Below are positions 20,601 through 47,613 of a DNA stretch of 64,000 bases, piece by piece. The position numbers and the translations under genes are program-made. Each line of letters opens with the position of its first letter. The first letter of the stretch is position 1. The notes beneath the pieces are model-generated. The model was not told the DNA's origin and did not search any database. It saw only the letters and a program-made list of their open reading frames with translations. The DNA is taken from NCBI RefSeq assembly GCF_009873495.1, contig NZ_CP046703.1:7250001-7314000 (forward strand). Reading direction: 5' to 3'. Origin of the DNA: Nostoc sp. ATCC 53789 (lineage in GTDB: Bacteria > Cyanobacteriota > Cyanobacteriia > Cyanobacteriales > Nostocaceae).

Positions 20601-20676
20601 TCGCTCCATCGGGTAACTGTTCAAACCCTTCTATGGTAGTAAGAAATTCGGGAAAAGTGTTCTTAATATAAGTCAT
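17668..20676 (-). CDS. Type I secretion ABC exporter with CRP-like and degenerate C39 domains
   Basis: The ~1002-residue protein has four parts. Residues ~10-150 are a cyclic-nucleotide-binding-like domain (LLQPGEIIGEISLLRDVACETAI). A peptidase C39-like region at ~290-410 reads GELNTAFACFQMI where active enzymes have a DCGAAC-type motif, so the catalytic Cys is replaced, and the expected His site reads GDNFAVLY. Transmembrane helices follow at ~430-710. The ATPase has GQSGSGKST (Walker A), LSGGQRQRIAIARS (signature) and LLVLDEATSALD (Walker B). The C39 part is therefore probably a substrate-binding domain, as in HlyB. ATG 20676 is preferred to an upstream TTG. The substrate is unknown: the RTX-type phosphatases at 39-53 kb or the NRPS product are both possible. 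Confidence 0.9.
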   Translation of the reverse strand: MTYIKNTFPEFLTTIEGFEQLPDGAIANLSEQLQAWRYRIGQKIIGKESLPERITIIYEGQVRLLGYDPQTQMPITLKLLQPGEIIGEISLLRDVACETAIASTEVVCLTLSASAYFSFLASYPAFAEARKNRSYLIEVFDILGSYWQKQAIATLNLRELTEKALPQAKIHYLPPGKTAFNQLDSAKVWFVSGGGTITNLSPGDRLEADDDRDKIQVIGQNPSRLVGIHPSDLILEDSHQIVLAVNNTQVDSQDDDELDIPYASDEIVPQPVPDTSKSSSKQKYPFFSGKGELNTAFACFQMIAKHLEIPFRREVVRRILTEQVKRQGLISFQVTAYLAELIGLKAQLIEIPVSSVTRIPTPALIRYGDNFAVLYAADANTVVVGVPSKGIVRCKPAQLVEQLDVDPTNFPPQAKVLLLSATNQTPQERFSLRWFLPYLSKHRRVLIEVFIASFFVQLAALANPLVVQLIIDKVITQNSIGTLHILGILLLVVGLFEAVLTTLRTYLFVDTTNRIDMGLGSQIIDHLLRLPLRYFERRPVGELSTRINELENIRQFLTGTALTVGLDALFSVVYIGVMLIYSWQLTLVGLSTIPVFIVITLIASPTISRQLRAKAERNAETQSYLVEVMSGIQTVKAQNIELRSRFSWQERYARFVAAGFKTVVTSTLANSTSNFLNKLSSLLVLWVGAYLVLQQELTLGELIAFRIISGYVTSPILRLAQLWQSFQETALSLERLSDIVDTPQEGETDRYNIPLPTIKGAVKYENVSFRFGTSGPLQLSNVNLEFAPGKFIGIVGQSGSGKSTMMKLLLRLYETESGRILIDGYDIAKVELYSLRRQIGVVPQETLLFDGSVQENIALTNPDATTEEIIEAAQVACAHEFIMNLPNGYNTRVGERGSALSGGQRQRIAIARSVLQRPKLLVLDEATSALDYPTERQICLNLAKAFKGDTVFFITHRLNTVSNADMIVVMDNSRVIEQGSHQELMATKGHYYYLYQQQDVNL

Positions 20677-21407
20677 ATAAAACAACTAAAAGTGAGGAAT
20701 TAAGTCGAAAATATTAGGGAGTATCTCTTTTACTAACAGTGGTAGTGTTTGGTTTTATGCTAGTAGTGGCAAGACTTCTGTACAATTCAGGTGCCTAAAT
20801 ATGTAATAGTACAGAGGATAGTTTCGTCTAATTTCAGACCTATATTTATGTCACACGGTTACGATTGTTATGCGTTTCTCAAACCAAAGCATAATGTAAA
20901 TAGATCGAGGACAAGTTATCACTTGGTTAACAACACATAATTTATACAAACTTAAAATCAATACTTAATCACCGCAAATATGCAAGATGGATACTCTACT
21001 CATCAAACCAAGACACATAAAGGTGGTTGTTAAATTTAGTGTCGCATATTTTAATTTATGATAATCAACATGAAAATATCACAGATGCCTTTCTAAGTAA
21101 ATACCCTAGTTAAAAATCATGTAATAAAAAAACTTTAAATTTATGAATTATTTTTTACATATTTAAATCACTAATGGCGAAGGATAGGAACCTTCCTTGT
21201 TAAACAGTGCCATACCCGAATTTATGAAAGAATTATCTCTTACTTTTTTGGTAGCTTAATTTAATAAAAATTAACTACAAAATCAAAGGTGAAGATTTAT
21301 TATGACCCTAGAGGAATCAACTATTAAATTTATGAAGGAAAGACAATAATTGCCTTCAGTAAATTCACTAGTTTAATCCATATTGAGTCTCGTTAATAGC
21401 TGTGCAT
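20677..21407. other. AT-rich gap, no confident gene
   Basis: About 730 AT-rich bases upstream of the exporter gene, presumably holding its promoter. A 15-codon ORF (21303-21350, plus strand) preceded by AAAGGTGAAG is the only small ORF with a plausible RBS, and it resembles nothing I know. Confidence 0.4.
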
Positions 21408-21829: not shown

Positions 21830-24800
21830 TTACTTCTTTCCTATGGTTTCTGCAATAATTTGATCTATGCAAGACTTCATTTTTTCAGACACAGATCGTA
21901 CATGGGGTTCTTTAAAAATGGAATTATGAATCCCAGAAATATCATAGATATCCACTCCCCCTAATGCCAATTTACCCCAACCCATTTTGGAATCAGCCTC
22001 TCGTTGTTCAACTACAAGACCATCTTCTGTTCGGAATACGGTTGCTTTACCTGAGTAAACTTGTAGAACATATTTTCTGAGCGCTTGTATGGTAGCATTT
22101 TCCACCATGTATTTCCGGTTGGAGTAAGGTAAGGGGCGACCGAGAATCAAGTGAAAGTGAAAAACAAAGCGCCAGAGTATCTCTTTGATTTGATACTTAA
22201 ACCGTTCTGTATTTCCTTTTACCTGCTCAATAAGATAGTTAGATGTAATTGCTAAAAGACTCTTCCAATCACGAGAGGCTGGCTTTTGCAATGATAGGGA
22301 TTCAGTATTTTTTGAACCGTAAGTATCAAATAGAACTAGCAAAGCTACTTCCTTACCTTGTATGGTCAATTGCCGAGCCATCTCGTAAGCAATTAAACCC
22401 CCGGAAGAGTATCCACCGATTAAATAAGGCTCACATGGCTGAATAGTCTGGATTTGTTGAATGTAGTGCGCTGCCATGTCTTCAATTCGGGTATAAGGAA
22501 GCTGTTTTCCATCTAACCCTTGTGGTTGTAGTCCATAAAATGGTTGATCTGATCCTAAATGCACAGCCAATTCACGGAAACGTAGAACTTCTCCACCCAA
22601 ACCATGTACACAGAAGAAAGGAGGCTTAGAACCGTTGGGCTGAATAGCTACTAAAGATGACCAAGGAATTGATGTTTCAGACTTGACATCAGCTGTTGGT
22701 ACCGCCGCAACCCCAGGTTTTGAGTATATTTCTCGCTCAACAATATTAGCTAACTGCTCAATGGTTGGGGCTTGCAAAAGTATAGATAGAGCTAGATTTT
22801 TCCCCACTATCTTTTCAATCTGAGAAAACAGACGTACTGCCAGCAATGAGTGTCCACCCAAATCAAAAAAGTTATCTGTTATTCCAATGGGATGAATTCC
22901 TAAAACATCTTCCCAGATTTCTGTTAATTGAAGTTGTAATGGATTTTCTGCCGTAGCAAATATTTTTTCTCTTTCAGTATTAGTTGGATTGAGAGCAAGT
23001 AAGGCTTGACGATCAACTTGACCATTAGCATTCAACGGCAGAGAATCAACTATGACAAAGGTAGGCAACAAATGCTCAGGTAGCTTTTGCTGGAGAAAAC
23101 TCAGTAGTTGCTCATTTCCCAAAGCCTCTCCTTGTTTGGGAACAAGATAAGCAACTAAATGTTTGTCCCCAGAAACATCTTCTCTGGCAATCACCGCAGC
23201 GTTCTGCACGCCTGGATATTGAGCTAAAATTGTCTCAATTTCTGTCAATTCAATCCGAAAACCGCGAATTTTAGCCTGATTATCTCGGCGGCCAATAAAC
23301 TCAATATTGCCGTCACTTAAGTAGCGCCCAAAGTCGCCACTTCTGTAAAGGTATGACCCGGATTCGCTGCTAAAGGGATTGGGGATAAATTTCTCAGATG
23401 TTAATTCGAGACGGTTAAAGTAGCCTTGTGCAATACCAATACCACTGATGTATATTTCGCCAGTAACGCCAATTGGCAGGGGTTGCGATCGCCGATCGAG
23501 AATGTAGATTTGGGTATTGGCGATCGCTTTTCCTATAGGAATTTCTGGCCGAGTGTTACTGGCTTCACTGGCAGTTGCCGGATCGTAAACCGTGGCGGTT
23601 AGGGTTGTTTCTAGCGATCCATAGCCATTAAGCCAACGTACTTGCTTGCCAAATTTTTCTACCCAAGTTAAATAAGCATTACGTGAGACTTTTTCACCAC
23701 CAACCATGACTAAGCGCAAGCTGGCTGGCAAGGTTTGTGGAGATAGAGACGGCTCTTTAACTAACTGATGCCAAAAATACGTAGGTAGATTAACAACGGT
23801 AATCTGTTGTTGAGCAATGAATGGGAAAAACTGCGCTGTAGATTGTAACTCTTGATACTGGATAATTGCAGTAGCACCAGCAATCCAAGTGGGGAACAAT
23901 GATTCTATAAAAGAATTGCAAGTGATACTAGGTAAGAGTAGGAGGCGATCGCTCTGGATCAACTCCCAAGTGTCACTGATTGCTAGGCTGTGGGTGACAA
24001 GATTACGGTGGGTAATGGCTATACCATTAGGTTTTCCATTGCCGCCGGACACATACATTACACAGGCGAGAGTCTGATCTGTGGTATAATAGTCTTGATT
24101 TTCTGTTGTATGTAGTGCGATACCTTCCCAATCATTATCTAAACAGATAACTTGTAGCTGATGCTCAGAGAGTTTCTCAACCAATGAGCTTTGGGTTAAC
24201 ACTACGGATATTTGGGCATCTTCTAAAATGAGAGCCAGACCATCTTGCCCAGATGTCGGAACTATGGATACGTAAGTTCCCCCAGCTTTCAAAATACCCA
24301 ACAGCCCCACAATCATCTCTAGCGAAGGCTCTACATAAAGACCGACGAGTACCCCCGATTTTACCCCTAGAGTTTGCAAATACTGGGCTAATTGATTTGC
24401 ACGCTGGTTGAGTTCCTGATAGGTTAGTTGCTGATTTTCAAAACTTACTGCAATATTATCTGGAGTTCGTTTAGCTTGAGCCTCAAACCACTGATGGATA
24501 CAAGTATTCTGCGGATAATCAGCCTGTTTGGCATTCCAGTCAACCAATAATTGATGCTCAGGTGCTGTCAACAGAGGTAATTCAGATATCGGCTGATCGG
24601 GATTAGCAACAATACCTTCAAGTAAAGTTTTGAAGTGTCCCAACATTCGCTCTATGGTACTGGCATCAAACATCTCGGCATTGTAATCAAATACCATGCC
24701 CAGACCATTATCCTGTTCCCGCAAGACTAATGTTAGATCGTATTTGGTTTTGCCATGATAGATGTAACCAAATAGAGAAGTAATAGTCAAATCAGGTAGT

Positions 24801-26128
24801 TGCAATCCTCCCATCCCACGACCATTTGACCAAGGAGGATTGAGGGAAAACTTTACTTGAAATAAAGGCGAACTGTTCCGACTTTGTTGTTCTGGTCTAA
24901 GTTCTTCAATTAGTCTCTCAAATGGTAAGTCTTGATGGGTATAAGCCTCTAAGCAATCCTTACGCACGCGGTCTAATAATTGTCGAAAAGTTGGATTTCC
25001 TGCTAAGTTACCCCGCATTACAAGAGTATTAGAGAAAAATCCAATCAGCCGCTCGGTTTCTACTTGTCCCCGACTTGCACTAGCAAAGCTAATCAGTAGG
25101 TCTTCTTGTCCAGAATAACGGTAGAGCAATAGCTCAAACACTGTCAGTAGAGTCATGAAGAGGGTAACACCCCATTTTTGGCTCAGGTCTGTCAGGGCAT
25201 GGTTCAGCGTCTTTGATAGCAGCAGGGCAGCGCGATCGCCCCGATATGTCTGCACACCATGAGGACGCGGATGATCGTAAGGTAACTCAATGATCGGTAA
25301 ATTGCCTTCTAGCTTTTGCTTCCAGTAGTTTACCTGTGACTCTAAAACCTCTCCTTGGAGCCACTGATATTGCCAATTGGTAAAATCGGCATACTGCACT
25401 GGTAAGGGAGTTAAGGGAGAAGCCAGCCCTGCCGACAATGCTTTATAGATGGTAGTGAAGTCTTGATAAAATATATCAGAAGAAGCTCCATCACAAACTA
25501 TGCAGTGCATATTCCAGATTAGCAGATGCTCGCGATCGCTCAACCGCAGTAGCAGCAACCGCAAAATCGGCCCATTGGCTAGATCAAAAGGTTGATGAGC
25601 TTCTTTAGTTGCCAGTAGGAGAGCTTCTGCCTCCCTTTGTTCATCTGGTATTTGCCGCAAGTCAATTATTGGCAGCGTCAAGGAAACATCGGTGGCAATG
25701 ACTTGAGTGGGCTTGCCATTTACGGCTGGAAAAGTTGTCCGCAGAACTTCATGGCGGCGGACGACTTCTCTCAAACTTTCCTCTAAGAAAGCAACATTCA
25801 GATTCCCCGTAAAACGCACCACAACGGGCATATTATTTGAGGAACTATTAGGTTCAAATTGATGCAGAAACCATATCCGTTGCTGACCAAAGGAAAGCGG
25901 CAAGTTGCCATTCCGTTCACAAGCGACAATTGGGGGAATCTGTGAACTCGCGGCTGTAGTAATTTGTTTTAGAAAGTTGACGATTTCGGCTTTTTGAGTT
26001 TTTAACTTGATGAGCAATTCCGGTGTGAGACTATCTTTTGCAGCCCGATAGCGTAAGCGTTCGCCCTCTAACCAAAGTTTGACATCGCGCTGACGTAGTT
26101 CAGAGAGTAGTTCATCTAATGTTTTCAT
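21830..26128 (-). CDS. NRPS termination protein: TubC dock, degenerate C and A, PCP, thioesterase
   Basis: 1432 residues. Residues ~1-55 (LLSELRQRDVKLWLEGERL) match a TubC-type docking domain. The C domain (~70-500) reads MHCIVCDG where HHxxxDG is expected, so the catalytic second His is Cys. The A domain (~530-1030) is worn: YVSGGNGKPNG replaces the YTSGSTGxPKG loop (Lys to Asn), ITCNSF replaces SFDAS so the amino-group Asp is missing, and NGYGSLETT replaces NxYGPTE. GNIEFIGRRDNQAKIRGFRI near its end is normal. The PCP has LGGHSLLAV. The type I TE (~1170-1430) has GGYSSGG, a downstream LFDTYG and GIHNSIF for the triad. The start overlaps the previous gene by ATGA. It may load an unusual acid, or be a non-elongating release module. 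Confidence 0.9.
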   Translation of the reverse strand: MKTLDELLSELRQRDVKLWLEGERLRYRAAKDSLTPELLIKLKTQKAEIVNFLKQITTAASSQIPPIVACERNGNLPLSFGQQRIWFLHQFEPNSSSNNMPVVVRFTGNLNVAFLEESLREVVRRHEVLRTTFPAVNGKPTQVIATDVSLTLPIIDLRQIPDEQREAEALLLATKEAHQPFDLANGPILRLLLLRLSDREHLLIWNMHCIVCDGASSDIFYQDFTTIYKALSAGLASPLTPLPVQYADFTNWQYQWLQGEVLESQVNYWKQKLEGNLPIIELPYDHPRPHGVQTYRGDRAALLLSKTLNHALTDLSQKWGVTLFMTLLTVFELLLYRYSGQEDLLISFASASRGQVETERLIGFFSNTLVMRGNLAGNPTFRQLLDRVRKDCLEAYTHQDLPFERLIEELRPEQQSRNSSPLFQVKFSLNPPWSNGRGMGGLQLPDLTITSLFGYIYHGKTKYDLTLVLREQDNGLGMVFDYNAEMFDASTIERMLGHFKTLLEGIVANPDQPISELPLLTAPEHQLLVDWNAKQADYPQNTCIHQWFEAQAKRTPDNIAVSFENQQLTYQELNQRANQLAQYLQTLGVKSGVLVGLYVEPSLEMIVGLLGILKAGGTYVSIVPTSGQDGLALILEDAQISVVLTQSSLVEKLSEHQLQVICLDNDWEGIALHTTENQDYYTTDQTLACVMYVSGGNGKPNGIAITHRNLVTHSLAISDTWELIQSDRLLLLPSITCNSFIESLFPTWIAGATAIIQYQELQSTAQFFPFIAQQQITVVNLPTYFWHQLVKEPSLSPQTLPASLRLVMVGGEKVSRNAYLTWVEKFGKQVRWLNGYGSLETTLTATVYDPATASEASNTRPEIPIGKAIANTQIYILDRRSQPLPIGVTGEIYISGIGIAQGYFNRLELTSEKFIPNPFSSESGSYLYRSGDFGRYLSDGNIEFIGRRDNQAKIRGFRIELTEIETILAQYPGVQNAAVIAREDVSGDKHLVAYLVPKQGEALGNEQLLSFLQQKLPEHLLPTFVIVDSLPLNANGQVDRQALLALNPTNTEREKIFATAENPLQLQLTEIWEDVLGIHPIGITDNFFDLGGHSLLAVRLFSQIEKIVGKNLALSILLQAPTIEQLANIVEREIYSKPGVAAVPTADVKSETSIPWSSLVAIQPNGSKPPFFCVHGLGGEVLRFRELAVHLGSDQPFYGLQPQGLDGKQLPYTRIEDMAAHYIQQIQTIQPCEPYLIGGYSSGGLIAYEMARQLTIQGKEVALLVLFDTYGSKNTESLSLQKPASRDWKSLLAITSNYLIEQVKGNTERFKYQIKEILWRFVFHFHLILGRPLPYSNRKYMVENATIQALRKYVLQVYSGKATVFRTEDGLVVEQREADSKMGWGKLALGGVDIYDISGIHNSIFKEPHVRSVSEKMKSCIDQIIAETIGKK

Positions 26129-29100
26129 AGCTCACCTTCCTCATAATCATCGGCGGTTTCACTATCAGCAGCCTGAACACCTTGGGTTGCCCAACGCAGA
26201 GTTTCCACTCGTTCAGCCAAATCTGCTACCGTTGGTAATTCAAATAAATTGGACATGAGGATTTCTACCTGCAAAGCTTGGCGCAGTCGAGAAACCACTT
26301 GAATTCCTAGTAGAGAATATCCACCCAATTCAAAAAAGTTGTCGTAAATCCCAACCTGCCTGACATTTAAAACCTGTGTCCAGATATCTGCAATCTGCTG
26401 CTCAATGGGAGTGCGAGGTGCTACATAATTTGCTTCCAGTTCTGGGCGGAAAGAATCAGGCTTTGGTAGTGCCCGACGATCAACTTTGCCGTTAGCATTT
26501 AGCGGCAAGGCTTCCAGTGCCATAAAAATCTTGGGCACCATATACTCAGGAAGCTGCTGTTTTAAGAATCGACGTAATTCGGAGATTATTTGCGGGCTAT
26601 CTTGACCAGCTTCTGCGACAAAATAACCAACCAGCACTTTCTCACCAGGAGCATCTTCTCGAACAATTACTACCGCTTCTTTTACTGCCGGATATTGCAA
26701 AAGTGCAATTTCAATTTCACCCAATTCTATACGGAAACCGCTCACTTTTACCTGATTGTCAATCCGACCCAGGTATTCAATCTTTCCATCTGGCAAATAG
26801 CGAGCTAAGTCTCCACTTTTATATAAGCGTGATTGAGTATCTGAGCTAAAGGGATTGGCAATAAATCTTTCAGCCGTCAGATCCGGGCGATTGAAATATT
26901 CTCGTGCTAAACCATCGCCACCAATATACAACTCACCTGTGATTCCAATTGGGACGGGTTGTAAATGGGAGTCTAATATATAAACTTGGGTATTAGCAAT
27001 GGGGCGACCAATAGGAATAGAAGCCCCTGGCTTTAGTGGTGCTGTAATCTCATAACAGCAGGTAAAAGTTGTACTTTCTGTCGGCCCGTAACCATTAATT
27101 AGTTTACAGTTTTCTACTGTGTTGATAAATTTATGGACATGGGTAACGGATAAAACATCACCACCTGCTAACAGTTGATGTAAGGGTTTTAAAGCATCAA
27201 TTTTTTCATCGACTATTAGATGGAATAAACCCGCCGTTAGCCATAAGGTTGTCACCTGATATTGCTGAATAAATTGCCCTAATTCGTCTAAAGATGGCGT
27301 ATGGGGAGGGAATATTATTAGTTTTCCACCATTCAGCAAACAACCCCAAATTTCAAAAGTTGAAGCATCAAAAGAGATAGGACTAATTTGTAGAAATACT
27401 TCTTTGTTAGTGAGGCTTACATAGTTAGTTTCTTTGACTAATCTAACTACACCTTGATGGATAACACTAACACCTTTGGGCTGACCTGTAGAACCAGATG
27501 TGTACATTACATAAGCCAAGTTCTCAGCCTTGACATTACTAATTAAATTCTCTGGCGTTGGTTGGTTGATAGTATCCCAGTCAGTATCTAAACAAATTAC
27601 ACTTGCTGCGTGAGCAGGTAGTTTGTCAATTAGCTGTTTTTGGGTCAACAGTAATTTGATCTGGGTGTCTGAAAGCATGAAAGCCAAACGTTCTTGCGGA
27701 TACCCAGGATCTAGGGGGATGTAAGCTCCACCTGCTTTCAGAATCCCTAAAAGACCTACTACCATTTCTAAGGAGCGATCGACGCAGATTCCCACAAGAA
27801 CATCTGCACCTACTCCTAATGTTTGCAGGTATTGGGCTAATTGGTTGGCGCGAATATTTAACTCTCGATAAGTAAGTTGCTGTTCTTGAAATACCAACGC
27901 CACAGCATCAGGGGTGCGTTCTACCTGCTCCTCAAATAACTGATGAATACATTTATGGTGGGGATAGTCTGTTTGTGTCTGGTTCCATGTTGTTAATAAC
28001 TGTTGCTCAACTGCTGGTAAAATTGGCAATTTAGCAATACTTTGATTAGGGTTAGCAACTATTCCCAATAACAAAGTTTCAAACTCTGCCATCCGGTGGC
28101 GAATAGTGTCAGCGTCAAATAAATTAGTGTTGTACTGACATTCCAGGGTCATCTGACCACGTAATTCCGTAGCATTGATGAACAGTTCAAAATTCTCGAA
28201 GGAACGGGGGTTAGAGAAAAATTCTACTTCCAGCCCAGTGAAGGGAAGTTTATCACTATCTAAACCCTGATCGATATTAAATGTAATGGGAACTAAGGGA
28301 ATACGGCTAGAATCCCGTGCCAAAACTAATTTTTTGACCAGACTACCAAAGGTAAATTGTTGATGATCGTAAGCATCTAATACAGCCGATCGCCGCGATC
28401 GCAAATAGTCGCTGAAAGATTTTTCGCCATCAATCTGGCTACGCAATGGTAATAAGTTTACACAGTGGCCTACGAGATTATATTGCCCCAAAGCAGCTTG
28501 TCCGGCGGCTGGAATACCAACAACCAAGTCGTTTTGTCCTGTCAGACGGTGTAGCCAAACCTCAAATCCTCCCAGGAGAGTAGTCATAAAGCTACAACCG
28601 AGTTTTGTCCCTAGTTGTTTGAGGTTGGCAACTAGTTCGGGGCTTAAATGCCAATCTTCACGGGCAGCATTAAAGGTTCTGAGTGGTGGACGGGGGCGAT
28701 CGCTGGGGAAATCTACAACAGGTACAGTGTCAGCAAATTGTTGTAACCAATATTTTTCTGTAGCGATCGCTTCTGGACTATCCGCCTCTTCTTCCTGCAA
28801 AATCGCATATTCACTTAAATTGTCTGGTTCTTCTAATTCAGGAACAATACCCTGTTGCAAGCCAGAATAAAGTTTACCCAAATCTGGCATCAGCACTGCC
28901 CAAGACCAACCATCACAAATAATATGATGTGCTGTCAAAGTAGCTAGATGCTCCTGCGCCTGCAATTTGACAATTTTTGCCCGAAATAGCGGCCCATGTT
29001 CCAAATCAAAAGGTTGCTCTACCTCTTGTCGCAAGATACTAGCTAATTTTTCCTGTTGTTCTTGTGGTTCCAGGTTAGAAACATCAATAATAGGGATTTC

Positions 29101-29406
29101 AATTTGCCGAGAAGCAACAATGCAGAGTGTATTGCCATCGGTGCTAAAAGTTGTCCGTAGTGCTTCATGACGTTGTACTAACTTTTCCACCGCAGACTGG
29201 AAAACTTTGACATCAAGTTCGCCTTTTAGTCGCAGAGATTGGGACTCGTTATAAGCACAATTGGCAGCATCCCCCATTTGTACAGAAGCCCAGATTTCTT
29301 TTTGTGATTCTGTGGCAGGGGCGGTTAGAAGTAATTCTCCATCTGCAAATGGATCAAAATCAACCGCAGTTAAACTGGATTGGTAATCTACAGGTAATAA
29401 GCTCAT
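26125..29406 (-). CDS. NRPS elongation module C-A-PCP (Val-like code)
   Basis: 1093 residues. The C domain (~25-450) has intact HHIICDGWS. The A domain (~480-975) has YTSGSTGQPKG, SFDASTFEIWG, NGYGPTESTTF, YKSGDLARYLPDG and the late Lys region NGKVDRRAL. Reading the pocket positions by eye gives D-A-F-W-L-G-G-T-F, close to the published valine code DAFWIGGTFK. The PCP has LGGYSLLGIQ (~1030). An acidic tail (ADDYEEGEL) could be a docking element for the TubC domain of the next protein. It follows the acyltransferase gene by 73 bases and overlaps the terminal NRPS gene by 4. Confidence 0.92.
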   Translation of the reverse strand: MSLLPVDYQSSLTAVDFDPFADGELLLTAPATESQKEIWASVQMGDAANCAYNESQSLRLKGELDVKVFQSAVEKLVQRHEALRTTFSTDGNTLCIVASRQIEIPIIDVSNLEPQEQQEKLASILRQEVEQPFDLEHGPLFRAKIVKLQAQEHLATLTAHHIICDGWSWAVLMPDLGKLYSGLQQGIVPELEEPDNLSEYAILQEEEADSPEAIATEKYWLQQFADTVPVVDFPSDRPRPPLRTFNAAREDWHLSPELVANLKQLGTKLGCSFMTTLLGGFEVWLHRLTGQNDLVVGIPAAGQAALGQYNLVGHCVNLLPLRSQIDGEKSFSDYLRSRRSAVLDAYDHQQFTFGSLVKKLVLARDSSRIPLVPITFNIDQGLDSDKLPFTGLEVEFFSNPRSFENFELFINATELRGQMTLECQYNTNLFDADTIRHRMAEFETLLLGIVANPNQSIAKLPILPAVEQQLLTTWNQTQTDYPHHKCIHQLFEEQVERTPDAVALVFQEQQLTYRELNIRANQLAQYLQTLGVGADVLVGICVDRSLEMVVGLLGILKAGGAYIPLDPGYPQERLAFMLSDTQIKLLLTQKQLIDKLPAHAASVICLDTDWDTINQPTPENLISNVKAENLAYVMYTSGSTGQPKGVSVIHQGVVRLVKETNYVSLTNKEVFLQISPISFDASTFEIWGCLLNGGKLIIFPPHTPSLDELGQFIQQYQVTTLWLTAGLFHLIVDEKIDALKPLHQLLAGGDVLSVTHVHKFINTVENCKLINGYGPTESTTFTCCYEITAPLKPGASIPIGRPIANTQVYILDSHLQPVPIGITGELYIGGDGLAREYFNRPDLTAERFIANPFSSDTQSRLYKSGDLARYLPDGKIEYLGRIDNQVKVSGFRIELGEIEIALLQYPAVKEAVVIVREDAPGEKVLVGYFVAEAGQDSPQIISELRRFLKQQLPEYMVPKIFMALEALPLNANGKVDRRALPKPDSFRPELEANYVAPRTPIEQQIADIWTQVLNVRQVGIYDNFFELGGYSLLGIQVVSRLRQALQVEILMSNLFELPTVADLAERVETLRWATQGVQAADSETADDYEEGEL

Positions 29407-29479
29407 AAAATTCTATTATTTTCTCAGTTTATTCAAAGTAAAATTTAATTTTTTCTTGTCAAAGTATTGGCATTTAAAT

Positions 29480-30631
29480 TCATTGTTTAGCCAAGATTGT
29501 AGACTTTAAATAATTACGCATTGGAACCTCTACAAATCTATATGTCAATGATGCAGCCAATATGATAATCATAAGAAATACTCCTAAAGATGTCAAGGCT
29601 TCATATTCTGTGAATCCTTTGCCAAAAGCATGGTGGAATTTATAAATCCATAATGTTTTTAACAATTCTTGAACAAACCAATGAACCATGTAAATCGAGT
29701 AAGATATAGTCCCGAAATACAGCATCAACCTTGAATTTAAAAATTTTGATATTACACTATTATTGTTGATAGATACAGCTAAAATTAGGAGAGAAAAAGC
29801 TGGTAAAACTAGCCAATCATGAAGACTACGCCAATAAGTCCAGTAGTAATTCATAATCAGAATTATCCAAGTTATAGCTATAATTGCTAGTAAGTTAAGA
29901 TTCAAATAATTTCTATAATTACCTCTGTGATAAATTTTATAAGTTATAATGCCGAGTATGCACTCTAGCCCGCACCTAGCTATGGAAGGTATGCCAATAA
30001 TACTATCTAAATTTCCACGGGTAAAAGCAATTAGTAGTAATATACTGAAGAGAGCAGAGACATAAATTCTTAAATCATTTTTCTCATTATTTCGTAATAA
30101 TAAAAATAAGAGAAATGGAAATATACAATAAATAACAAACTCTACACTAATTGACCAAGCTGGCTCATTCCAATAAGTATCGCACCAAAATAAAGGTGGG
30201 CAATTTAAGTCGAATGCTTGAAGAAGGAAAATATTAGCAAAAAGGGCAGTTAAATTAAATTTGCCAGTAAAAGCAGAATTATTTAGTAAAAATAGTTTTA
30301 AAATTTCTAATCCGATAAATAGAGATAAAATAAATATATGTAGAGGATAAATTCTGGCAAAACGCGACGATAAATATGAACGATATTTAGATGAATTAAC
30401 TTTTAATGAAAAATCTTCAATATAAACGTGGGTCATGATAAAACCACTCAGAATGAAGAAAAAATCAACCCACAAATATCCATTACGAAAAAAATTGCTA
30501 TATGCTGATAAAGTTGAACCAGTTTTAGATAAAGTGTAATATGAGAAATGATGTACAACAACAACCAAAGCTGCAATACCGCGCAGAGCGGTGAGCGAAT
30601 TGATTTGGTTATACATTGATATTTTTGGCAT
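29480..30631 (-). CDS. Acyltransferase-3 family membrane protein (OafA-like)
   Basis: The 383-residue integral membrane protein has about ten hydrophobic segments. The family signature is at the N-terminus (SLTALRGIAALVVVVHHF, with the conserved Arg and His) and in VDFFFILSGFIMTHVY. The C-terminus is RFVEVPMRNYLKSTIL. Members move acyl groups from cytoplasmic donors onto sugars or lipids at the membrane. It lies inside the NRPS operon between the PKS and C-A-PCP genes, on the same strand, so tailoring of the peptide (acylation) is a reasonable inference. It is AT-rich compared with its neighbours. Confidence 0.88.
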   Translation of the reverse strand: MPKISMYNQINSLTALRGIAALVVVVHHFSYYTLSKTGSTLSAYSNFFRNGYLWVDFFFILSGFIMTHVYIEDFSLKVNSSKYRSYLSSRFARIYPLHIFILSLFIGLEILKLFLLNNSAFTGKFNLTALFANIFLLQAFDLNCPPLFWCDTYWNEPAWSISVEFVIYCIFPFLLFLLLRNNEKNDLRIYVSALFSILLLIAFTRGNLDSIIGIPSIARCGLECILGIITYKIYHRGNYRNYLNLNLLAIIAITWIILIMNYYWTYWRSLHDWLVLPAFSLLILAVSINNNSVISKFLNSRLMLYFGTISYSIYMVHWFVQELLKTLWIYKFHHAFGKGFTEYEALTSLGVFLMIIILAASLTYRFVEVPMRNYLKSTILAKQ

Positions 30632-30998
30632 TGAATTATCTCAAGAATATAAACAGTTAGATATTTTTAGGATAATCTTGATGGTTTTATGAGATTTTTG
30701 AAATACAAGTTGTTCACCCAATTATGGTTTTGGTGAGCATTGCCCACACTATTTATAAAAATCATTTTGCTATATCAAATCTGTCAAAAGTTTAGCTTCT
30801 AATTTCTACTATGATCTTATTAAGACTTACTTGAACTAGGTTTAAGTACATTATCAGTTAATATAAAAAGCCCTAATCGATGAGTATTTAATATTTGCAA
30901 ACACAGTGAATTTTTGGTGTTGCTGAATTGGAGTAAGAATTGACATTTTTTGATATGACTTCATACTTGCAATCAGCAACGCCAATTTTTTAAAGCAC
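30632..30998. other. AT-rich spacer inside the biosynthetic operon
   Basis: 367 AT-rich bases between the PKS stop and the acyltransferase start. No ORF, clear hairpin or repeat seen. A separate promoter for the downstream three genes could lie here. Confidence 0.4.
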
Positions 30999-33900
30999 TT
31001 AGGAAACACTTGCAACTTGTAAATACTTCCCAGGCCGCTCGCTATCGGGGATATACCAAGCGGGGTTGCCTTGGGGATCTCGTCCTAATTTGGCATTAGG
31101 TTGCGGAGGACGATTACGTAGGCTGTTATTGGTAACTTCGCTGTTTGTTACTTCTATGGGCGGTGCAGACAAAAAGCCAGCAGACTGCATTTCGGCAATA
31201 CTTTCTTTAAAGGCTGCCATTACAAAAGCTAGATCGGCTTCGGAATGAGCTGTTGTCAAGAAGCAAGGACGATGATCCCAAGTATGCACTCCCTTATCCC
31301 GCAGTAAATAAAATAGTAAGTCTCCGTAAGGAAACTCTGGTGCAGATTTCACCATAAACAGGGAGCCGAAGTTATAAGCTGTATACGGAGCCTGAACTTT
31401 CTGGAAATAGCCCATAAGTTCCGCTACAAATTTATCGGTTCTGGCATTGAGATTTTGCTGCAAGCTGGGGCCACTCTGTTTTAAATGTTGAAGTACTGCT
31501 TTGGCGGCTGCTAGTGCTAAAGGATGGCGGACAAAAGTTCCGGCAAAGTAAGTCACGCCAACTTCTGGAACTGAGTCATCCCCAAACTGCCAAAATCCAC
31601 CATCTAAAGCATCCATATATTGCGATTTGCCAGCAATGACTCCAATCGGTAGTCCACCGCCCACAATCTTGCCGTAGGTTGCTATATCAGCTTTGATACC
31701 AAAATGTGCCTGAGCGCCACCTGGATGAATTCTAAATCCGGTAACGATTTCGTCAAAAATTAGAGCAATACCAGCTTCTTCAGTGAAATCACGTAATTGC
31801 TGAAGGAATTCCTTGGGCTGGTATTCAGGGCGACGGCTTTGCACAGATTCAACCATCACTGCTGCTAACTCATCAGCCCGGCTTCTAAGGATTTCTAGAG
31901 ACTCAGGTGAGTCGTAGTCCACCACCAAAATGTTCTCTACCATTTCGGGTGGGATACCAGGAGCAGCAGGAATTGACCGGAGTTTTTTTGTCCCCCGAAC
32001 AATTACTTCATCCAAAATACCGTGATAAGCTCCAGAAAAGATGGCGATTAAGTTACGCCCTGTGATGGTGCGTGCCATCCGCATCGCTCCCAAAACCGCT
32101 TCCGAACCTGTGTTGCAGAAGGCTGCTCGGTCAAAGTTGGTCAACTCACACATCAGCTTTGCCACTTCTCCAACTAAGGGAGTCTGCGGCCCAATTTCCA
32201 TGCCTAGTTTCAGTTGTACTTCAATTGCTTCGGTAATGAAAGGTGGCGACCAACCAAACAAATTCAAACCAAAACCATTGCTTAAATCGACATATTCATT
32301 GCCATCAAGATCCCAAAGTTTAGAACCCGATGAACGAGACGCTACGATGGGATAAACCATCTCTTTCATCGTCGGGTTAAAGCCAGAAACAGTTCTTGGA
32401 TCTGCCAAATAAGGGCGATGGGATTGAGTATATTCTTTGGATTTTTTAGTCCGTTGTGTGTATCTTTGAATAATTTTGTCTAGATAAGTTCGTTGTTGCG
32501 TTGTCAGAGTTTTAGTCTGGGTTTTTTCAATTCGAGCAGCCGCACCAAATGCCTTTTTAGGGCCATTTGATTCCGTGTCTACCGATGCAGGTGATTCTTT
32601 GCTCGTTTGAGTCGCTGGGATAGATACGGCGTTTTGTGGTTTGACACCATTATTTTGAGGTGTCGCTGCAGGTACAACTGGGATTGTTACAGGTTGACTG
32701 TTGTTACCCAATAGTGCCAATTGCTGACTCATGATTTGTAGCTGCTGATTAATCACATTTTCGAAGAAACTGGATGCAGCAGGTTGGGCAGAAATCTGAG
32801 GTGCAGATCCATTTGTATGAACTTCATGCACTAGCAAAGTGGGTGATGTGGTTGCAGGTGCTGGTAATGGTACTTCTGGAATGGGTTCTGCAACAGTTTC
32901 TGTTAATCCTAATGCAGATAAAGTTTCGGGAGACAAGGCTGGATTGATAAAGTCAGCCAGTGTTCCTAAATTGGGGTAAATTTCTAGTAACTGCCTAAGT
33001 GTTACCTTTACTTGAAATTTTTTCTTTAACGCTAGCCCTACTTGAGTCAGTGATAAAGAATCTAATCCCATTTCTAAAAATGTTGTCGAATCGTCAACAC
33101 TAGCGATTTCCAATCCTGATGTTTCTTCAATAATTTCTTTTAGCAGAGGAATAAGCTTTTGCTGAGGAGATTTTATCATATCTTGGGTATTTTCTAACTG
33201 GGGATTTGAAGGTTTGGGAGTTGCTGCGCGATTGGGATGAGGTAAAGGATCAATCCAGAAGCGTTGGCGTTCAAAGGGATAGGTAGGCAGAGAAATTCGT
33301 TGTCGCGTTTCCCTTTGATAGAAGTTGCTCCAGTCAATAGATACTCCTGCTAGCCACAGTTGTCCTACTGCCTTGAGTAATGCTGTCCATTCGGCTTCGT
33401 TCTCAGCGTTATCGCCCAGAGAAGCGTAGGCTTTGCCCGCCGTAGGCATCGCTATCTGTTGTTTAATATCTTTTGCTTGTTGGCGGGCTAAGGTCGTAGT
33501 TGTGATTCGCGGCCCAACTTCTAACAGTACGCGTTCTGGTTGCTGCCATAAGGTTTGTATACCCTCCGCAAATCGCACAGTCTGACGTAGATGTGTAGCC
33601 CAATACATCGGATCAGTTGCTTGCTGGGCTGTAATCCAGTCGGCGGTAACTGTGGAAACAAAGGGAATTTGAGGAGGTGATAATTTAACTTTCCTAACTA
33701 CCTCAGCAAAGGGGGCTATGATGTCATCCATCATTGGGGAATGGAAAGCGTGGGAAGTGTGTAAACGGCGACAGACGACTTCTTCGCTTTCTAGTTGTTT
33801 TTGTAGAGCCGCGATCGCTTCTGTTGGCCCAGAAACTACACACAGGGAAGGGCCGTTAATTGCGGCGATCGCTAATTCTGGACTCAATCGCGGCTCTACC

Positions 33901-35936
33901 TCTTTAGCTGGTAAGCGCACTGAGAGCATGGCCCCTTGTGGTAAGTCCCACATGAAGCGACCGCGATTTGCAACCAACATCAGCGCATCTTCTAAGGTGA
34001 ATACACCCGCAATACAGGCGGCGACAAATTCGCCAATGCTGTGACCAATCATCGCTTGGGGCTTGACTCCCCAACTTTGCCACAGTTGCGCTAAAGCGTA
34101 TTCAATGACGAATAATGCTGGTTGAGTAAAGCAGGTTTGCTTTAGGGCGATAGCCGCAGTTTCGCGATCGCTTGGCGCGGGATATATAATTTTTCGTAAA
34201 TCACCGCCCAGTAATGGTTTAAGGATTTCTGCACATTCATCTACTACCTCCTGAAACACAGGTTCACGGTTGTAGAGATTCAGTCCCATATCCACATATT
34301 GCGACCCTTGTCCGGGGAACATGAAGGCAACGGCTGGATTACGGATTTCTGTATGGCGGGTATTTACTTGATTGGGATCTAAAGATTGTAACGCTGCGAT
34401 CGCATCTGTGATGTCGTGACAAACTACACTACGTCGATAATTTAAGGCTTTGCGCCCTCGCTGTAGGGTATAAGCTACATCGGCTAAGTTAATTTCAGCA
34501 TTGTACTGGAGATATTGCTGCAAATTTACTGTTGCAGCTTCTAAGGCTGTGCTAGTTTTTGCTGAGAGCAACAATAGCTGCTGTGGACGAGAAGATCCAG
34601 AATTTTGAATGTGTGGCGCTTCTTCCAGCACAATATGAGCATTAGTCCCGCCAACACCAAAAGAACTTACACCGGCTCGTCGCGGAGTTTCACCTTCTGG
34701 CCATTCAGCTAGTTTGGTATTTACATAGAAGGGGCTATTGGCAAAGTCAATCTTGGGATTGGGAGCCTCAAAATTTAAGCTAGGTGGAATCTTTTTATAA
34801 TGCAGGGCAAGAACGGTTTTAATTAATCCTGCTACCCCAGCAGCTGCAACTAAATGTCCGACATTGCTTTTCAGAGAGCCGATCGCACAAAATTGTTTAG
34901 CATCTGTATGCACACGAAATGCTTGCGTCAGCGCTTCAATTTCAATGGGGTCGCCTAAAGGTGTAGCTGTACCGTGAGCTTCAATATAAGAGATGGTTTC
35001 TGGGTGGAAGTTGGCATAAGCTTGGGCCATTGCAACGGCTTCTGCTTGTCCGTCTACGCTAGGAGCCGTAAAGCTTACTTTATCAGCACCATCATTATTA
35101 ATACCTGAACCACGAATTACGGCATAGATGCGATCGCCTTCATTGAGTGCATCTTCTAAACGCTTGAGGACAACTATTCCTGCGCCATTGTTGAACATTG
35201 TGCCCTGAGCGCTGGCATCAAAGGGACGACAATGACCATCTCCAGAGAGCATACTGCCTTCTTGAGCCATATAACCGCTATTTTGAGGTGTAGTCATAGA
35301 TACACCACCAGCTAAAGCCATATCGCACTGATAGCTGCTTAAGGCTTGACAAGCTTGAATAATTGCTACTAAAGAAGTAGAGCAAGCTGTATTAACACTG
35401 ACAGCCGGGCCTTTAAGGTTGAGTTTGTAAGCAGCACGGGTGGTTAAAAAGTCTTTTTCATTTGCTAACATGGTCTGGAACTCGCCGATGCGATCGACAA
35501 TTTCCATACGTCCAGAAATATGGTTGGCAAAATAAGTATTTTGACCACAACCAGCGTATAAACCAATCAAGCCATCGAAAGATTCTGATTCATAACCAGC
35601 ATTTTCTAGAGCTTCATAAACCAACTCTAGAAAAACTCTAGCTTGTGGGTCCATAACCACAGCTTCCAGTGGATTAATGCCAAAGAAGGCTGCATCAAAA
35701 GTTTCTCCCCCAGGAATGATTCCTCTAGCTTTTACATAACTGGGATCTTTGCAAAGGTTCGGGTCAATGCTGGGATCTAATTCCTCATCTTGAAAAAAAG
35801 TCGTTGACTCTAATCCCTCACACAGATTGCGCCAAAACTCATCGACATTGCCAGCGCCAGGAAATCTTCCTACCATGCCGATAATGGCAACACCATCAAT
35901 AGGATCTTGATTATCTGAGGTTTGCATATTTACCAT
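30999..35936 (-). CDS. Type I PKS module KS-AT-ACP with fused aminotransferase
   Basis: 1645 residues. The KS (~13-440) has the catalytic Cys in VNTACSTSL and both His sites (EAHGTATPLGD, KSNVGHL). The AT (~535-850) has GHSIGE and HAFH, the malonyl-CoA-type signature. The ACP (~930-1010) has GLDSLSLTQ. After a Pro/Thr/Gln-rich linker, a class III PLP aminotransferase (~1190-1600) has ATYGKIVGGGLPIGV with the PLP Lys, similar in type to the GSA-like AMT domains of McyE and iturin PKSs. No KR, DH or ER is present, so the beta-keto group would be transaminated directly to a beta-amine. The start is 3 bases after the A-PCP gene stop. Confidence 0.93.
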   Translation of the reverse strand: MVNMQTSDNQDPIDGVAIIGMVGRFPGAGNVDEFWRNLCEGLESTTFFQDEELDPSIDPNLCKDPSYVKARGIIPGGETFDAAFFGINPLEAVVMDPQARVFLELVYEALENAGYESESFDGLIGLYAGCGQNTYFANHISGRMEIVDRIGEFQTMLANEKDFLTTRAAYKLNLKGPAVSVNTACSTSLVAIIQACQALSSYQCDMALAGGVSMTTPQNSGYMAQEGSMLSGDGHCRPFDASAQGTMFNNGAGIVVLKRLEDALNEGDRIYAVIRGSGINNDGADKVSFTAPSVDGQAEAVAMAQAYANFHPETISYIEAHGTATPLGDPIEIEALTQAFRVHTDAKQFCAIGSLKSNVGHLVAAAGVAGLIKTVLALHYKKIPPSLNFEAPNPKIDFANSPFYVNTKLAEWPEGETPRRAGVSSFGVGGTNAHIVLEEAPHIQNSGSSRPQQLLLLSAKTSTALEAATVNLQQYLQYNAEINLADVAYTLQRGRKALNYRRSVVCHDITDAIAALQSLDPNQVNTRHTEIRNPAVAFMFPGQGSQYVDMGLNLYNREPVFQEVVDECAEILKPLLGGDLRKIIYPAPSDRETAAIALKQTCFTQPALFVIEYALAQLWQSWGVKPQAMIGHSIGEFVAACIAGVFTLEDALMLVANRGRFMWDLPQGAMLSVRLPAKEVEPRLSPELAIAAINGPSLCVVSGPTEAIAALQKQLESEEVVCRRLHTSHAFHSPMMDDIIAPFAEVVRKVKLSPPQIPFVSTVTADWITAQQATDPMYWATHLRQTVRFAEGIQTLWQQPERVLLEVGPRITTTTLARQQAKDIKQQIAMPTAGKAYASLGDNAENEAEWTALLKAVGQLWLAGVSIDWSNFYQRETRQRISLPTYPFERQRFWIDPLPHPNRAATPKPSNPQLENTQDMIKSPQQKLIPLLKEIIEETSGLEIASVDDSTTFLEMGLDSLSLTQVGLALKKKFQVKVTLRQLLEIYPNLGTLADFINPALSPETLSALGLTETVAEPIPEVPLPAPATTSPTLLVHEVHTNGSAPQISAQPAASSFFENVINQQLQIMSQQLALLGNNSQPVTIPVVPAATPQNNGVKPQNAVSIPATQTSKESPASVDTESNGPKKAFGAAARIEKTQTKTLTTQQRTYLDKIIQRYTQRTKKSKEYTQSHRPYLADPRTVSGFNPTMKEMVYPIVASRSSGSKLWDLDGNEYVDLSNGFGLNLFGWSPPFITEAIEVQLKLGMEIGPQTPLVGEVAKLMCELTNFDRAAFCNTGSEAVLGAMRMARTITGRNLIAIFSGAYHGILDEVIVRGTKKLRSIPAAPGIPPEMVENILVVDYDSPESLEILRSRADELAAVMVESVQSRRPEYQPKEFLQQLRDFTEEAGIALIFDEIVTGFRIHPGGAQAHFGIKADIATYGKIVGGGLPIGVIAGKSQYMDALDGGFWQFGDDSVPEVGVTYFAGTFVRHPLALAAAKAVLQHLKQSGPSLQQNLNARTDKFVAELMGYFQKVQAPYTAYNFGSLFMVKSAPEFPYGDLLFYLLRDKGVHTWDHRPCFLTTAHSEADLAFVMAAFKESIAEMQSAGFLSAPPIEVTNSEVTNNSLRNRPPQPNAKLGRDPQGNPAWYIPDSERPGKYLQVASVS

Positions 35937-35939
35937 TGC

Positions 35940-37970
35940 TTAAACACCTTGTTGATGATTACGGCGGCGAGCTTGAGCTGCTTGTTGGCGTTGAGCGCGA
36001 TTTTGCAGCTTGTCATGAGACGGTTGGCTGTTCTGGTTTGAATGCAAATATTTTGCTAAAGAGCCAATCGTTGAATACTGAAATAGCTTCACAGCAGGTA
36101 GTTCAATACCAAGTTCCTGTTTGACTCGCGCAGCAACTTGCAGAATTGAGATTGAAGTTCCTCCCAAATCAAAGAAATTATCATCAATCCCAACGCGATC
36201 GATTTTGAGCAGTTCAGACAAAATACCTGCAAGCAAACGTTCTAAATCGGTTTGGGGAGCAATGTATGCTTGTTCGAGTTGCGGACGTTCTCTACTTGGT
36301 GCTGGCAATTTATGTCTATCTACTTTGCCATTTGCGGTTAGAGGCAGTGATTCTAACATCACAAACGCTGATGGCACCATGTAATGAGGTAGTTGCTGCT
36401 GTAAAAAACTACGTAAATTATTGTGTGTATATTTGCTGTTATAGTGAGGAACAATATAAGCAGTCAACTGCTTTTCACCTGTTTCATCCTGACGAGCTAA
36501 AACAACAATTTCCCGAACATCAGGATGTTGTGCAATCTCCCGCTCGATTTCCCCTAGTTCAATTCGGAAACCGCGAATTTTTACCTGATTGTCAACCCGA
36601 CCTAAAAACTCGATATTGCCATCTGGGAGATAACGAGCTAAATCTCCAGTTGTGTAAAGGCGGGTTGCTAAATTGCTATCAAATGAGTGAGAAATAAATT
36701 TTTCAGCAGTCAATTCGGGGCGATTCAAATACCCTCTAGCTAATCCATCTCCAGCAATGTACAATTCGCCAACTTCTCCAATTGCTACTGCTTGGAAGTT
36801 GTTGTCTAATATATAAACTTGGGTATTAGCAATTGGGCGGCCAATAGGAATAGATACACCTGGTTGCAGTGGCGCTGTTATAAGATGGCAGCAGGTAAAA
36901 GTTGTATTCTCAGTTGGCCCATAACCATTAATTAGCCGACAGTTCTCTACTGTTTGGAGAAACTTCTGTACATGGGGAACAGATAAGACATCGCCACCCG
37001 CTAAAAGTTGACGCAAAGATTTTAACGCATCAATTTTTTCATCCACTATGAGATGGAATAAGCCGGCTGTCAACCAAAGAGTAGTGACTTGATATTGTTG
37101 AATAATTTGCCCTAATTCTTCTAATGATGGTGTATGAGGAGGGCAAATTACTAGTTGCCCACCGTTAAGTAAGCAACCCCAAATTTCAAAAGTTGAAGCG
37201 TCGAAGGAAATAGGAGCAAGTTGCAGAATTATTTCTTCAGCCGTGAGGTGAGCATAATTAGTTTCTTTGACTAGCCTAACTACACCACGATGGATAACGC
37301 TAACCCCTTTCGGTGTACCTGTAGAACCTGATGTATACATGACATAAGCCAAGTTTTCAGCAGTGACGTTAGTGCTTAGGTTCTCTTTTTTATTTTGGGC
37401 GATTGTATGCCAATCTGCATCTAGGCAAATTACAAATGCTGTATGAGTAGGTAATTTAGCAACTAGGTCTTTTTGAGTTAATAGTATAGATACCTGGGTA
37501 TCTAATAGCATAAAAGCTAAACGTTCTTGTGGATACCCTGGATCTAGCGGTACATAAGCTCCACCTGCTTTGAGAATAGCTAAAAGTGCTACAACCATTT
37601 CTAAGGAGCGCTCTATGCAGATACCTACAAGAGTTTCTGCTCCTATACCTAGTGTTTGTAGATATTGTGCCAGTTGATTAGCACGACTATTCAAATCTCT
37701 ATAGGTGAGATGCTGATTATTAAAGATTAATGCTACAGCATCAGGTGTTTTCTGAACCTGTGCTTCAAACAACTGATGAATACACGCTTGCTGAGGATAA
37801 TCCGTTTGAGTCTTATTCCACTCGATCAGTAGGTCTTTTTCGGATTCTTTCAAGATAGGTAATGTTAAATTATATCGTTCTAAGTTATTATCTGATGATA
37901 ATGATGTTTGACACTCAGTTACCAGAAATTGATTTTTATTTTTAGCTAATGAATCAGTTATTGCTTTCAT
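35940..37970 (-). CDS. NRPS loading module A-PCP (Val-like code)
   Basis: 676 residues with no C domain. After ~35 residues and a short LPILKESEKDLLIEWNKTQ linker that looks like the tail of a C domain, an A domain (~60-560) has YTSGSTGTPKG, SFDASTFEIWG, NGYGPTENTTF, YTTGDLARYLPDG and NGKVDRHKL. Pocket positions read D-A-F-W-L-G-G-T-F, identical to the A domain at 26-29 kb. The PCP has LGGTSISILQ (~610). A basic tail (RQQAAQARRRNHQQ) may dock to the PKS. As the first module it should start the chain with a valine-like amino acid handed to the KS. Confidence 0.92.
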   Translation of the reverse strand: MKAITDSLAKNKNQFLVTECQTSLSSDNNLERYNLTLPILKESEKDLLIEWNKTQTDYPQQACIHQLFEAQVQKTPDAVALIFNNQHLTYRDLNSRANQLAQYLQTLGIGAETLVGICIERSLEMVVALLAILKAGGAYVPLDPGYPQERLAFMLLDTQVSILLTQKDLVAKLPTHTAFVICLDADWHTIAQNKKENLSTNVTAENLAYVMYTSGSTGTPKGVSVIHRGVVRLVKETNYAHLTAEEIILQLAPISFDASTFEIWGCLLNGGQLVICPPHTPSLEELGQIIQQYQVTTLWLTAGLFHLIVDEKIDALKSLRQLLAGGDVLSVPHVQKFLQTVENCRLINGYGPTENTTFTCCHLITAPLQPGVSIPIGRPIANTQVYILDNNFQAVAIGEVGELYIAGDGLARGYLNRPELTAEKFISHSFDSNLATRLYTTGDLARYLPDGNIEFLGRVDNQVKIRGFRIELGEIEREIAQHPDVREIVVLARQDETGEKQLTAYIVPHYNSKYTHNNLRSFLQQQLPHYMVPSAFVMLESLPLTANGKVDRHKLPAPSRERPQLEQAYIAPQTDLERLLAGILSELLKIDRVGIDDNFFDLGGTSISILQVAARVKQELGIELPAVKLFQYSTIGSLAKYLHSNQNSQPSHDKLQNRAQRQQAAQARRRNHQQGV

Positions 37971-41806: not shown

Positions 41807-42016
41807 GCTTACTATTCCTTAAGTATTGTGAGCTACGATTAATCGCAGCAATTGTGTATCTGTATGAGCAATTAATTACGCTCAACCCAAGCAAAAAATT
41901 CTTGGCTACAGAAACCTAAATAGTATTTGGCGACAAAATGCTTAGTGTCCACACAAAATGGTGCAGACAATTAAATGAACTTAACTTTGGTTACTGTCTC
42001 AAAAGATAGTTGTTCA

Positions 42017-42046
42017 ATGTTTAAGGAAAGTTATAAACAAGTTAAG
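42017..42046 (-). promoter_or_regulatory. Pho box-like triple repeat
   Basis: On the minus strand CTTAACTT-gtt-TATAACTT-tcc-TTAAACAT: three 8-bp units separated by exactly 3 bases. It matches the published cyanobacterial Pho box form (YTTAAYYW-like units, 11-bp period) bound by PhoB/SphR. It lies about 210 bases upstream of the 41806 start. Confidence 0.7.
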
Positions 42047-42055
42047 ATTTTGGAC

Positions 42056-42090
42056 AAAAAAATCCCCAACTCTTCAAGAAGTCGGGGATC
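42056..42090 (-). terminator. Rho-independent terminator after the alkaline phosphatase gene
   Basis: Minus strand GATCCCCGACTTCTTGAAGA then GTTGGGGAT and seven T residues: a strong stem with a U run. It insulates the 42339-47117 gene from the Pho box of the following gene, about 10 bases on. Confidence 0.88.
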
Positions 42091-42158
42091 TAATCCTTTA
42101 GATAGAGAGCAAATCAAAATATGATTGCAATATCACTCTTTAGAGTTAGCAAAGGCGC

Positions 42159-47591: not shown

Positions 47592-47613
47592 ACAATCACG
47601 CTAGGTGAACAAT

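Follow-up and report, generated by a model that had tools for sequence, protein, structure and literature searches.

In 2013 the domain order A-CP-KS-AT-CP-PLP1 was tabulated for Pedobacter heparinus C6XWU5 and, with further domains, for Thiorhodococcus drewsii G2E5C9 (PMC3870968), and in 2024 an operon of Pseudanabaena galeata CCNP1313 (OA858_07105/07095/07090) was described for which use of valine, malonate and an aminotransferase (AMT) domain was predicted (PMC11356792). We analysed a similar operon in a 64,000-nucleotide stretch of Nostoc sp. ATCC 53789 (contig NZ_CP046703.1, positions 7,250,001 to 7,314,000; the whole stretch is called the window here), where five open reading frames (ORFs), all on the minus strand between window positions 21830 and 37970, form one operon for a mixed non-ribosomal peptide synthetase (NRPS) and polyketide synthase (PKS) line. 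Like the window protein, the two proteins tabulated in 2013 combine this order of domains with an Aminotran_3 match, but they belong to other phyla and were assigned predicted monomers only, and the word 'vicinal' has zero occurrences in the main text of that paper (PMC3870968). The P. galeata operon is like the window in its A (Val)-PCP-KS-PCP-AMT string, in its AT motifs GHSI and HAFH, in its intervening ORF and in its C-A-PCP followed by a docking-C-A-PCP-TE with overlapping stop and start, but it begins with a C domain and carries the A-PCP within the PKS protein (PMC11356792). Its authors proposed a beta-amino fatty acid rather than a vicinal diamine, and the passages describing the operon name no product; the likeness is one between Pfam matches and a published description (PMC11356792). 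An earlier reading of this DNA, called the original prediction below, had termed the pathway unrecognised, and this stands for the product and the diamine, neither of which is named in the portions of these sources compared here, but not for the domain order, already in the 2013 table (PMC3870968), or for the operon type, of which a similar case appeared in 2024 (PMC11356792). Overall, the best explanation of the whole operon is an aminoacyl-primed AMT-PKS/NRPS line making a 3,4-diamino-acyl-Val, which we regard as rather probable. Directly observed are its domain set, its active-site residues and homologies, a starter type indicated by gene fusion and phylogeny, and the loss of key residues in its last module.

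By their coordinates the first four operon genes are separated, in order, by gaps of 3, 367 and 73 bp, and the last two overlap by 4 bp; the Pfam string they encode is A-PCP; KS-AT-ACP-Aminotran_3; Acyl_transf_3; C-A-PCP; TubC_N-C-A-PCP-TE. The first protein, P0001 (676 amino acids (aa), 35940..37970), is an A1-PCP1 loading protein with A1 at about 36306-37790 and PCP1 at about 36027-36254. The second (1645 aa, 30999..35936) contains the KS (about 34617-35900), AT (33417-34346), ACP (32931-33161) and AMT (31197-32531) domains, with a gap of only about 100 aa between the AT and ACP matches. These are followed by a membrane acyltransferase (Acyl_transf_3, Pfam 95 bits; 383 aa, 29480..30631), by the C-A2-PCP2 protein (1093 aa, 26125..29406) with its C domain at about 27982-29346 and A2 at about 26467-27951, and by a protein of 1432 aa (21830..26128) that has a TubC docking domain, a terminal C domain (24539..25918), a third adenylation domain, A3 (23009..24508), and PCP3 plus TE (21833..22948). 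The window retains the KS motifs NTACSTS, EAHG and KSNVGH, the AT motifs GHSIGE and HAFHS, the ACP motif GLDSL, the AMT motif TYGK, the Ser of PCP1-3, and the GYSSG, Asp and His motifs of the TE; we take HAFH to denote a malonyl-type AT. Pfam gave zero matches to KR, DH or ER across the five operon proteins, so that the operon order without reductive domains given in the original prediction is borne out by ORF coordinates and Pfam. A trans-acting KR was also considered, and the scan of 28 window ORFs shows one SDR, at 3092-3832, which lies about 18 kb off on the other strand and was not linked to the operon.

The starter unit appears to be an amino acid. P0001 passes the amino-acid adenylation model TIGR01733 (474.4 bits against a cut-off of 317.4, NCBIfam). 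We compared the operon with 45 loci retrieved by similarity to the window AMT, 39 of which contain a KS; their domains were scanned with the window's own domains as queries, a procedure to which other domain types would be invisible, and Pfam was applied to relatives' proteins only for L021, L027 and L029. An A-PCP or C-A-PCP lies immediately upstream of the AMT-PKS in 35 of the 39 KS-bearing loci, a fraction that says nothing on AMT-PKSs at large since the sample was chosen by AMT similarity. The four exceptions are L032, where a PCP was seen and an A domain was not, L040 and L041, where an A-like frame stands in a different order, and L043, where no A unit was seen. Among its kin the layout is not rare; the original prediction had called an aminoacyl starter unusual. 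The A and KS domains are fused in a single open frame in 11 of the 39 (L024, L027-L031, L034-L036, L039 and L044).

For phylogenetic comparison we used 20 further AMT loci of the genus with their surroundings, nine of them labelled as having a fatty-acid--AMP ligase (FAAL) on the basis of weak A-like matches upstream; starter labels in general were assigned from domain order. The KS tree (44 of 58 rows, the other 14 being near copies) has a long 100/100 branch with all nine FAAL rows and four unlabelled rows on one side, and all 19 A-PCP rows, all eight C-A-PCP rows and four further rows on the opposite side. The AMT tree (51 of 65 rows, with 14 near copies again omitted) has a 100/100 clade of 30 that holds all 19 A-PCP rows, four C-A-PCP rows and seven unlabelled rows, and no FAAL row. 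A separate loading enzyme that might hand a fatty acyl chain to the KS, which the original prediction had itself raised, was looked for among the 28 scanned window ORFs, and these encode no AMP-binding domain other than A1 to A3 and no FAAL. A beta-amino lipopeptide synthetase is marked by a FAAL or fatty-acyl starter, and the window has instead an A-PCP starter and a KS outside the FAAL group. The possibility that the KS takes a fatty-acyl or other non-amino-acid starter, yielding an ordinary beta-amino lipopeptide like the iturins and puwainaphycins, would agree with the fatty-acyl starters of described beta-amino lipopeptide AMT-PKS lines (PMC4219810), but it has to contend with the single-frame A-PKS fusions, with KS and AMT domains that fall outside the FAAL-type groups, with the TIGR01733 score of P0001 and with the lack of a FAAL among the scanned ORFs, and we consider it very improbable. 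A fatty-acyl starter was rejected on the gene fusion, the KS tree and the AMT tree, and together with the A1 code these indicate that an aminoacyl starter is well supported.

The codes of A1 and A2 are identical (DAFWLGGTF); code positions were located via core motifs rather than by alignment to 1AMU. We take this code to be valine-type, and codes in relatives to be probably of Pro, Gly and Asp type. The codes listed in PMC3547906, DALFIGGTFK for Val and DFWNIGMVHK for Thr, lend the valine reading partial support. Most Nostoc loci have an A1 of the DAFWLGGTF type, while L008, L019, L027 and L028 have DFWNIGMVH, the Thr code of that list (PMC3547906), and other codes are found elsewhere. A2 reads DISQITLIW in L005, L006, L009, L012, L014 and L045, and the window A1 and A2 share about 77-79% DNA identity with the other module's A domain in relatives. 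The second Val-like residue of the original prediction is in keeping with an A2 code that is the same as that of A1.

The best match of the AMT in the PDB is the mycosubtilin AMT 6kfm (456.6 bits, E 1.2e-135), compared with 182.3 bits for the best chain from outside AMT-PKSs, and the pyridoxal-phosphate lysine is kept, with TYGK of the window aligned with TYGK of MycA. The domain stands after the ACP of a KS-AT module that lacks a KR and before a C domain that sits in a separate protein two genes on. AMT and KS are the two most constrained domains tested, with median ratios of nonsynonymous to synonymous substitution (dN/dS) of 0.049 and 0.048; all such values are Nei-Gojobori medians from pairing the window with up to 16 or 14 Nostoc-type loci, counting only pairs whose dS exceeds 0.15. 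As a homologue of the MycA AMT, this domain would be predicted to transaminate a beta-ketoacyl-ACP. The HAFH motif, the missing KR/DH/ER and the AMT homology also favour a malonyl-type extender followed by transamination in place of reduction, as originally proposed. What we infer is which substrates are used, that a diamine is formed, how the chain is released and that it is acylated. A1 would activate valine, as read from its code, onto PCP1, and the KS would condense it with AT-supplied malonate to 4-amino-3-oxo-5-methylhexanoyl-ACP, the 3-keto group of which would then be converted by the AMT to give 3,4-diamino-5-methylhexanoyl-ACP, a vicinal diamine. This intermediate is our best prediction, held with moderate confidence, if the starter is Val; the vicinal diamine first proposed is upheld by domains, trees and codes as a prediction of the product. 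A 3,4-diamino unit is the 'amino' counterpart of a statine-type unit. C-A2-PCP2 would attach a second Val, and the last module would add nothing, its A domain being dead and its C domain lacking the catalytic His, so that the chain may move to PCP3 or straight to the TE, which would release a short diamino-acyl-Val, linear or cyclised. The membrane acyltransferase perhaps acylates this product.

The last module looks dead for elongation, a degeneracy that the original prediction did not mention. The second His of the HHxxxDG motif is usually needed for condensation, and the motif reads HCIVCDG in the terminal C domain (Cys codon 25502-25504) versus an intact HHIICDG in the upstream C. Across 22 docking-C units including the window this position is Cys in 14, Ser in six and His in two (L011 and L019), a pattern that requires three changes on the tree. 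In A3 the motifs read YVSGGNGKPNG (PKG to PNG) and NGQVD (A10 Lys to Gln), and the code Asp is replaced by Asn; PNG for PKG together with loss of the A10 Lys is found in 14 of 14 retained copies, window included. An elongating module would carry both HHxxxDG and the A10 Lys, and here HCIVCDG and NGQVD stand in their place. A3 is cut or gone in L014, L015, L017, L018 and L024; the spacing from the terminal C to PCP3 is 531-540 aa with A3 present, 262 in L018, 112 in L014, 93 in L024 and 23 in L015 and L017. In L025 the last module is split across two frames with no A match.

For the remaining domains, median dN/dS rises from ACP (0.074), the terminal C (0.081) and PCP3 (0.104) through the upstream C (0.111), PCP2 (0.113), AT (0.121), PCP1 (0.123), A2 (0.130), TubC (0.133), A1 (0.138) and the acyltransferase (0.183) to A3 (0.244) and TE (0.298), where the sets for A2, PCP3 and TE include recombined or swapped copies. 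Some relatives have a swapped TE, with 49-54% identity in L005, L010, L014 and L015, and PCP3 has diverged alongside swapped TEs, with 61-73% identity to the window in nine loci (L005, L006, L010, L011, L012, L014, L015, L017 and L018). The terminal C domain is thus under strong purifying selection while A3 decays and is repeatedly deleted. Since this C domain is kept while A3 decays, the module seems to add no residue and yet still to act, and we favour a role in which the terminal C transfers the chain to PCP3-TE. The last module could instead still elongate, if another domain such as A1 or A2 loads PCP3 in trans and the terminal C condenses without its His to give diamino-acyl-Val-Val or similar. 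The Ser of PCP3, which the window shares with all 20 units of relatives compared, and the constraint on the terminal C would suit such trans-loading, and relatives offer apparent precedents: in L011 HHIIADG is intact and the Val-type A domain looks intact, apparently an active C-A-PCP-TE replacement, and L019 keeps HH, with DA for DG, next to an A domain that looks intact. Some relatives thus probably have a third module that elongates. Against elongation in the window stand Cys or Ser at the second His in 20 of the 22 docking-C units, and the A3 domains that lack the catalytic Lys in every retained copy or are cut or gone in five loci, and we judge it to be unlikely.

A number of points weigh against a diamine-forming, non-elongating line as a whole. 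Of the FAAL labels in the trees, only that of L050 was confirmed by profile. Five C-A-PCP rows from four aminoacyl-type loci (L058, L060, L061 and L062) group with FAAL rows in the AMT tree, and coupling between AMT clade and starter type is therefore not strict. Before transamination a free 4-amino-3-oxo thioester could close to a tetramic acid, and the diamine, once formed, could itself cyclise to a gamma-lactam; a starter C domain that could cap the amine is missing from the window and present in L019, L021, L022 and L037. The same reactivity of gamma-amino-beta-keto thioesters, and by Pfam the same uncapped amine, would permit the beta-keto intermediate to exit early as a tetramic acid or pyrrolidinone, with the AMT slow or serving another substrate, but an AMT among the two most constrained domains, followed by a C domain that keeps HHIICDG and has an A-PCP of its own, speaks against this, and we think early exit distinctly unlikely. 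As PCP3 has diverged along with swapped TEs, its low dN/dS, which goes with the highest median dN of the carriers (0.127), is weaker evidence of use than that of the terminal C. We came across no product of the operon, no metabolite and no assay of its enzymes. Finally, the P. galeata authors take the third module as residue-adding (PMC11356792).

Of 53 genomes searched in the genus, 22, the window's own included, carry the AMT stretch at 95-100% identity, and the next AMT matches are at most 59%, fragments in one genome excepted; given this recurrence the operon is not a chance find. Near relatives of the locus are Nostoc and Desmonostoc, with a 98.1% match over 20.9 kb in L026 (Desmonostoc muscorum FACHB-395), and distant members are found in Bacteroidota, Planctomycetota and Pseudomonadota. 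A broader and more tentative proposal places the operon in a family of aminoacyl-primed AMT-PKSs that spans several phyla and turns Val, Thr, Pro and other starters into beta,gamma-diamino acids ('aminostatines'), with release in the Nostoc/Leptolyngbya branch by way of a C domain that does not elongate. In that branch the terminal C, with Cys or Ser for His and an A domain dead or gone, would have the sole task of passing the peptide on from PCP2 to the free thiol of PCP3, a role analogous in an NRPS to that of the non-elongating KS0 domains of PKSs. If true, a compact line from amino acid and malonate to 3,4-diamino acid, present with different starter codes across several phyla, would offer natural tools for making aminostatine-like units, and a conserved His-less terminal C would make a chain-transfer role of C domains testable.

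Several relatives have features of their own. Glycosyltransferase or Wzx-like matches adjoin the operon clearly in L019, L027, L028 and L036 and as weaker or single matches in L024, L025, L029 and L032, and are absent from L021, L035 and L044 (11 loci in all). A polysaccharide role was considered and is only noted, as no such gene is found among the scanned window ORFs and the neighbour counts in relatives have no control regions. L027:3542-15607 encodes a 4022-aa protein that joins a family 2 glycosyltransferase to A-PCP-KS-AT-ACP-AMT-C-A-PCP-TE and adjoins a Wzx-like flippase and two glycosyltransferases, and the L028 neighbourhood is similar. L029:11545-16767 has a methyltransferase insert in its second module (Pfam), and the A-PCP gap in L011:12627-21463 is of similar length. 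The window's own genome has a second NRPS-PKS cluster (C1 3349700-3389200; L061, L065) with C-A-PCP (code DLTKIGHVG), KS-AT, ACP-AMT-C-A-PCP and a free-standing AMT frame, possibly an independent aminoacyl plus AMT route.

The interval between the AMT and acyltransferase genes (30632..30998, minus strand) appears to be the scar of a tailoring gene, which is also absent from the original prediction. A full-length JmjC/Cupin_8-like gene occupies this slot in several relatives, with such a gene seen in L002, L006, L009, L011, L016 and L025, with L006, L009 and L011 passing the Pfam Cupin_8 cut-off and L002, L016 and L025 just under it; truncated matches are seen in L005, L012 and L014, and a different, clearer Cupin_8 gene in L021, L037 and L042. 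The two halves of the window's 367-bp gap match the ends of the L002 interval (L002:11644-12687), at 90% over 175 bp for the 5' end and 87% over 186 bp for the 3' end, and the scar retains about 25 codons of the gene's 5' end. From these matches a hydroxylase-like gene was deleted from the window operon and left a remnant, so the window product should lack that step. An unrelated slot gene is common to L013, L024 and L025, and any name for it is a guess, as a methyltransferase match is found in L013 only, weak and below cut-off.

Downstream, also on the minus strand, 17668..20685 encodes an ABC exporter of type I-like kind that has C39-like and cNMP-binding domains (Pfam; TIGR01846 730.9 bits, cut-off 725.55) and may serve as an exporter for the operon, a putative link, and 15992..17575 encodes a HlyD-type membrane fusion protein (Pfam) that from its position is likely the partner of the ABC protein. 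Upstream of the operon, three large proteins with RTX repeats, encoded at 39138-53040, carry phosphatase, phytase-like and phosphodiesterase domains, and a PsrR1 small RNA lies at 57573-57655 on the minus strand (Rfam 56.5 bits, gathering score 42).

Vicinal diamines, which chemists and drug designers prize, are reached by few known enzyme routes; one such route, to guadinomine, reportedly uses an aminomalonyl extender and transamination. Guadinomine is a natural vicinal diamine, the diamine being said to matter for activity, and comes from a line different from that of the window (PMC6963908). The original prediction knew of no described product of this architecture, and none is named in the titles and abstract starts of the open-access literature, among the matches listed. 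What is known is the domain order and the logic of Val, malonate and AMT; the product and an explicit vicinal diamine are not in the literature compared. The mycosubtilin/iturin MycA and puwainaphycin synthetases are like the window in AMT family and in placing the AMT after a PKS-module ACP, but take a fatty-acyl starter via FAAL (PMC4219810), unlike the window's A-PCP, and the FAAL-type KSs and AMTs compared here form clades apart from those of the window. Statine-type units and zeamine Zmn16-18 (PMC3547906 for the latter) share with the window a Val-primed PKS extension, but there a KR rather than an AMT acts on the keto group and leaves a hydroxyl instead of an amine.

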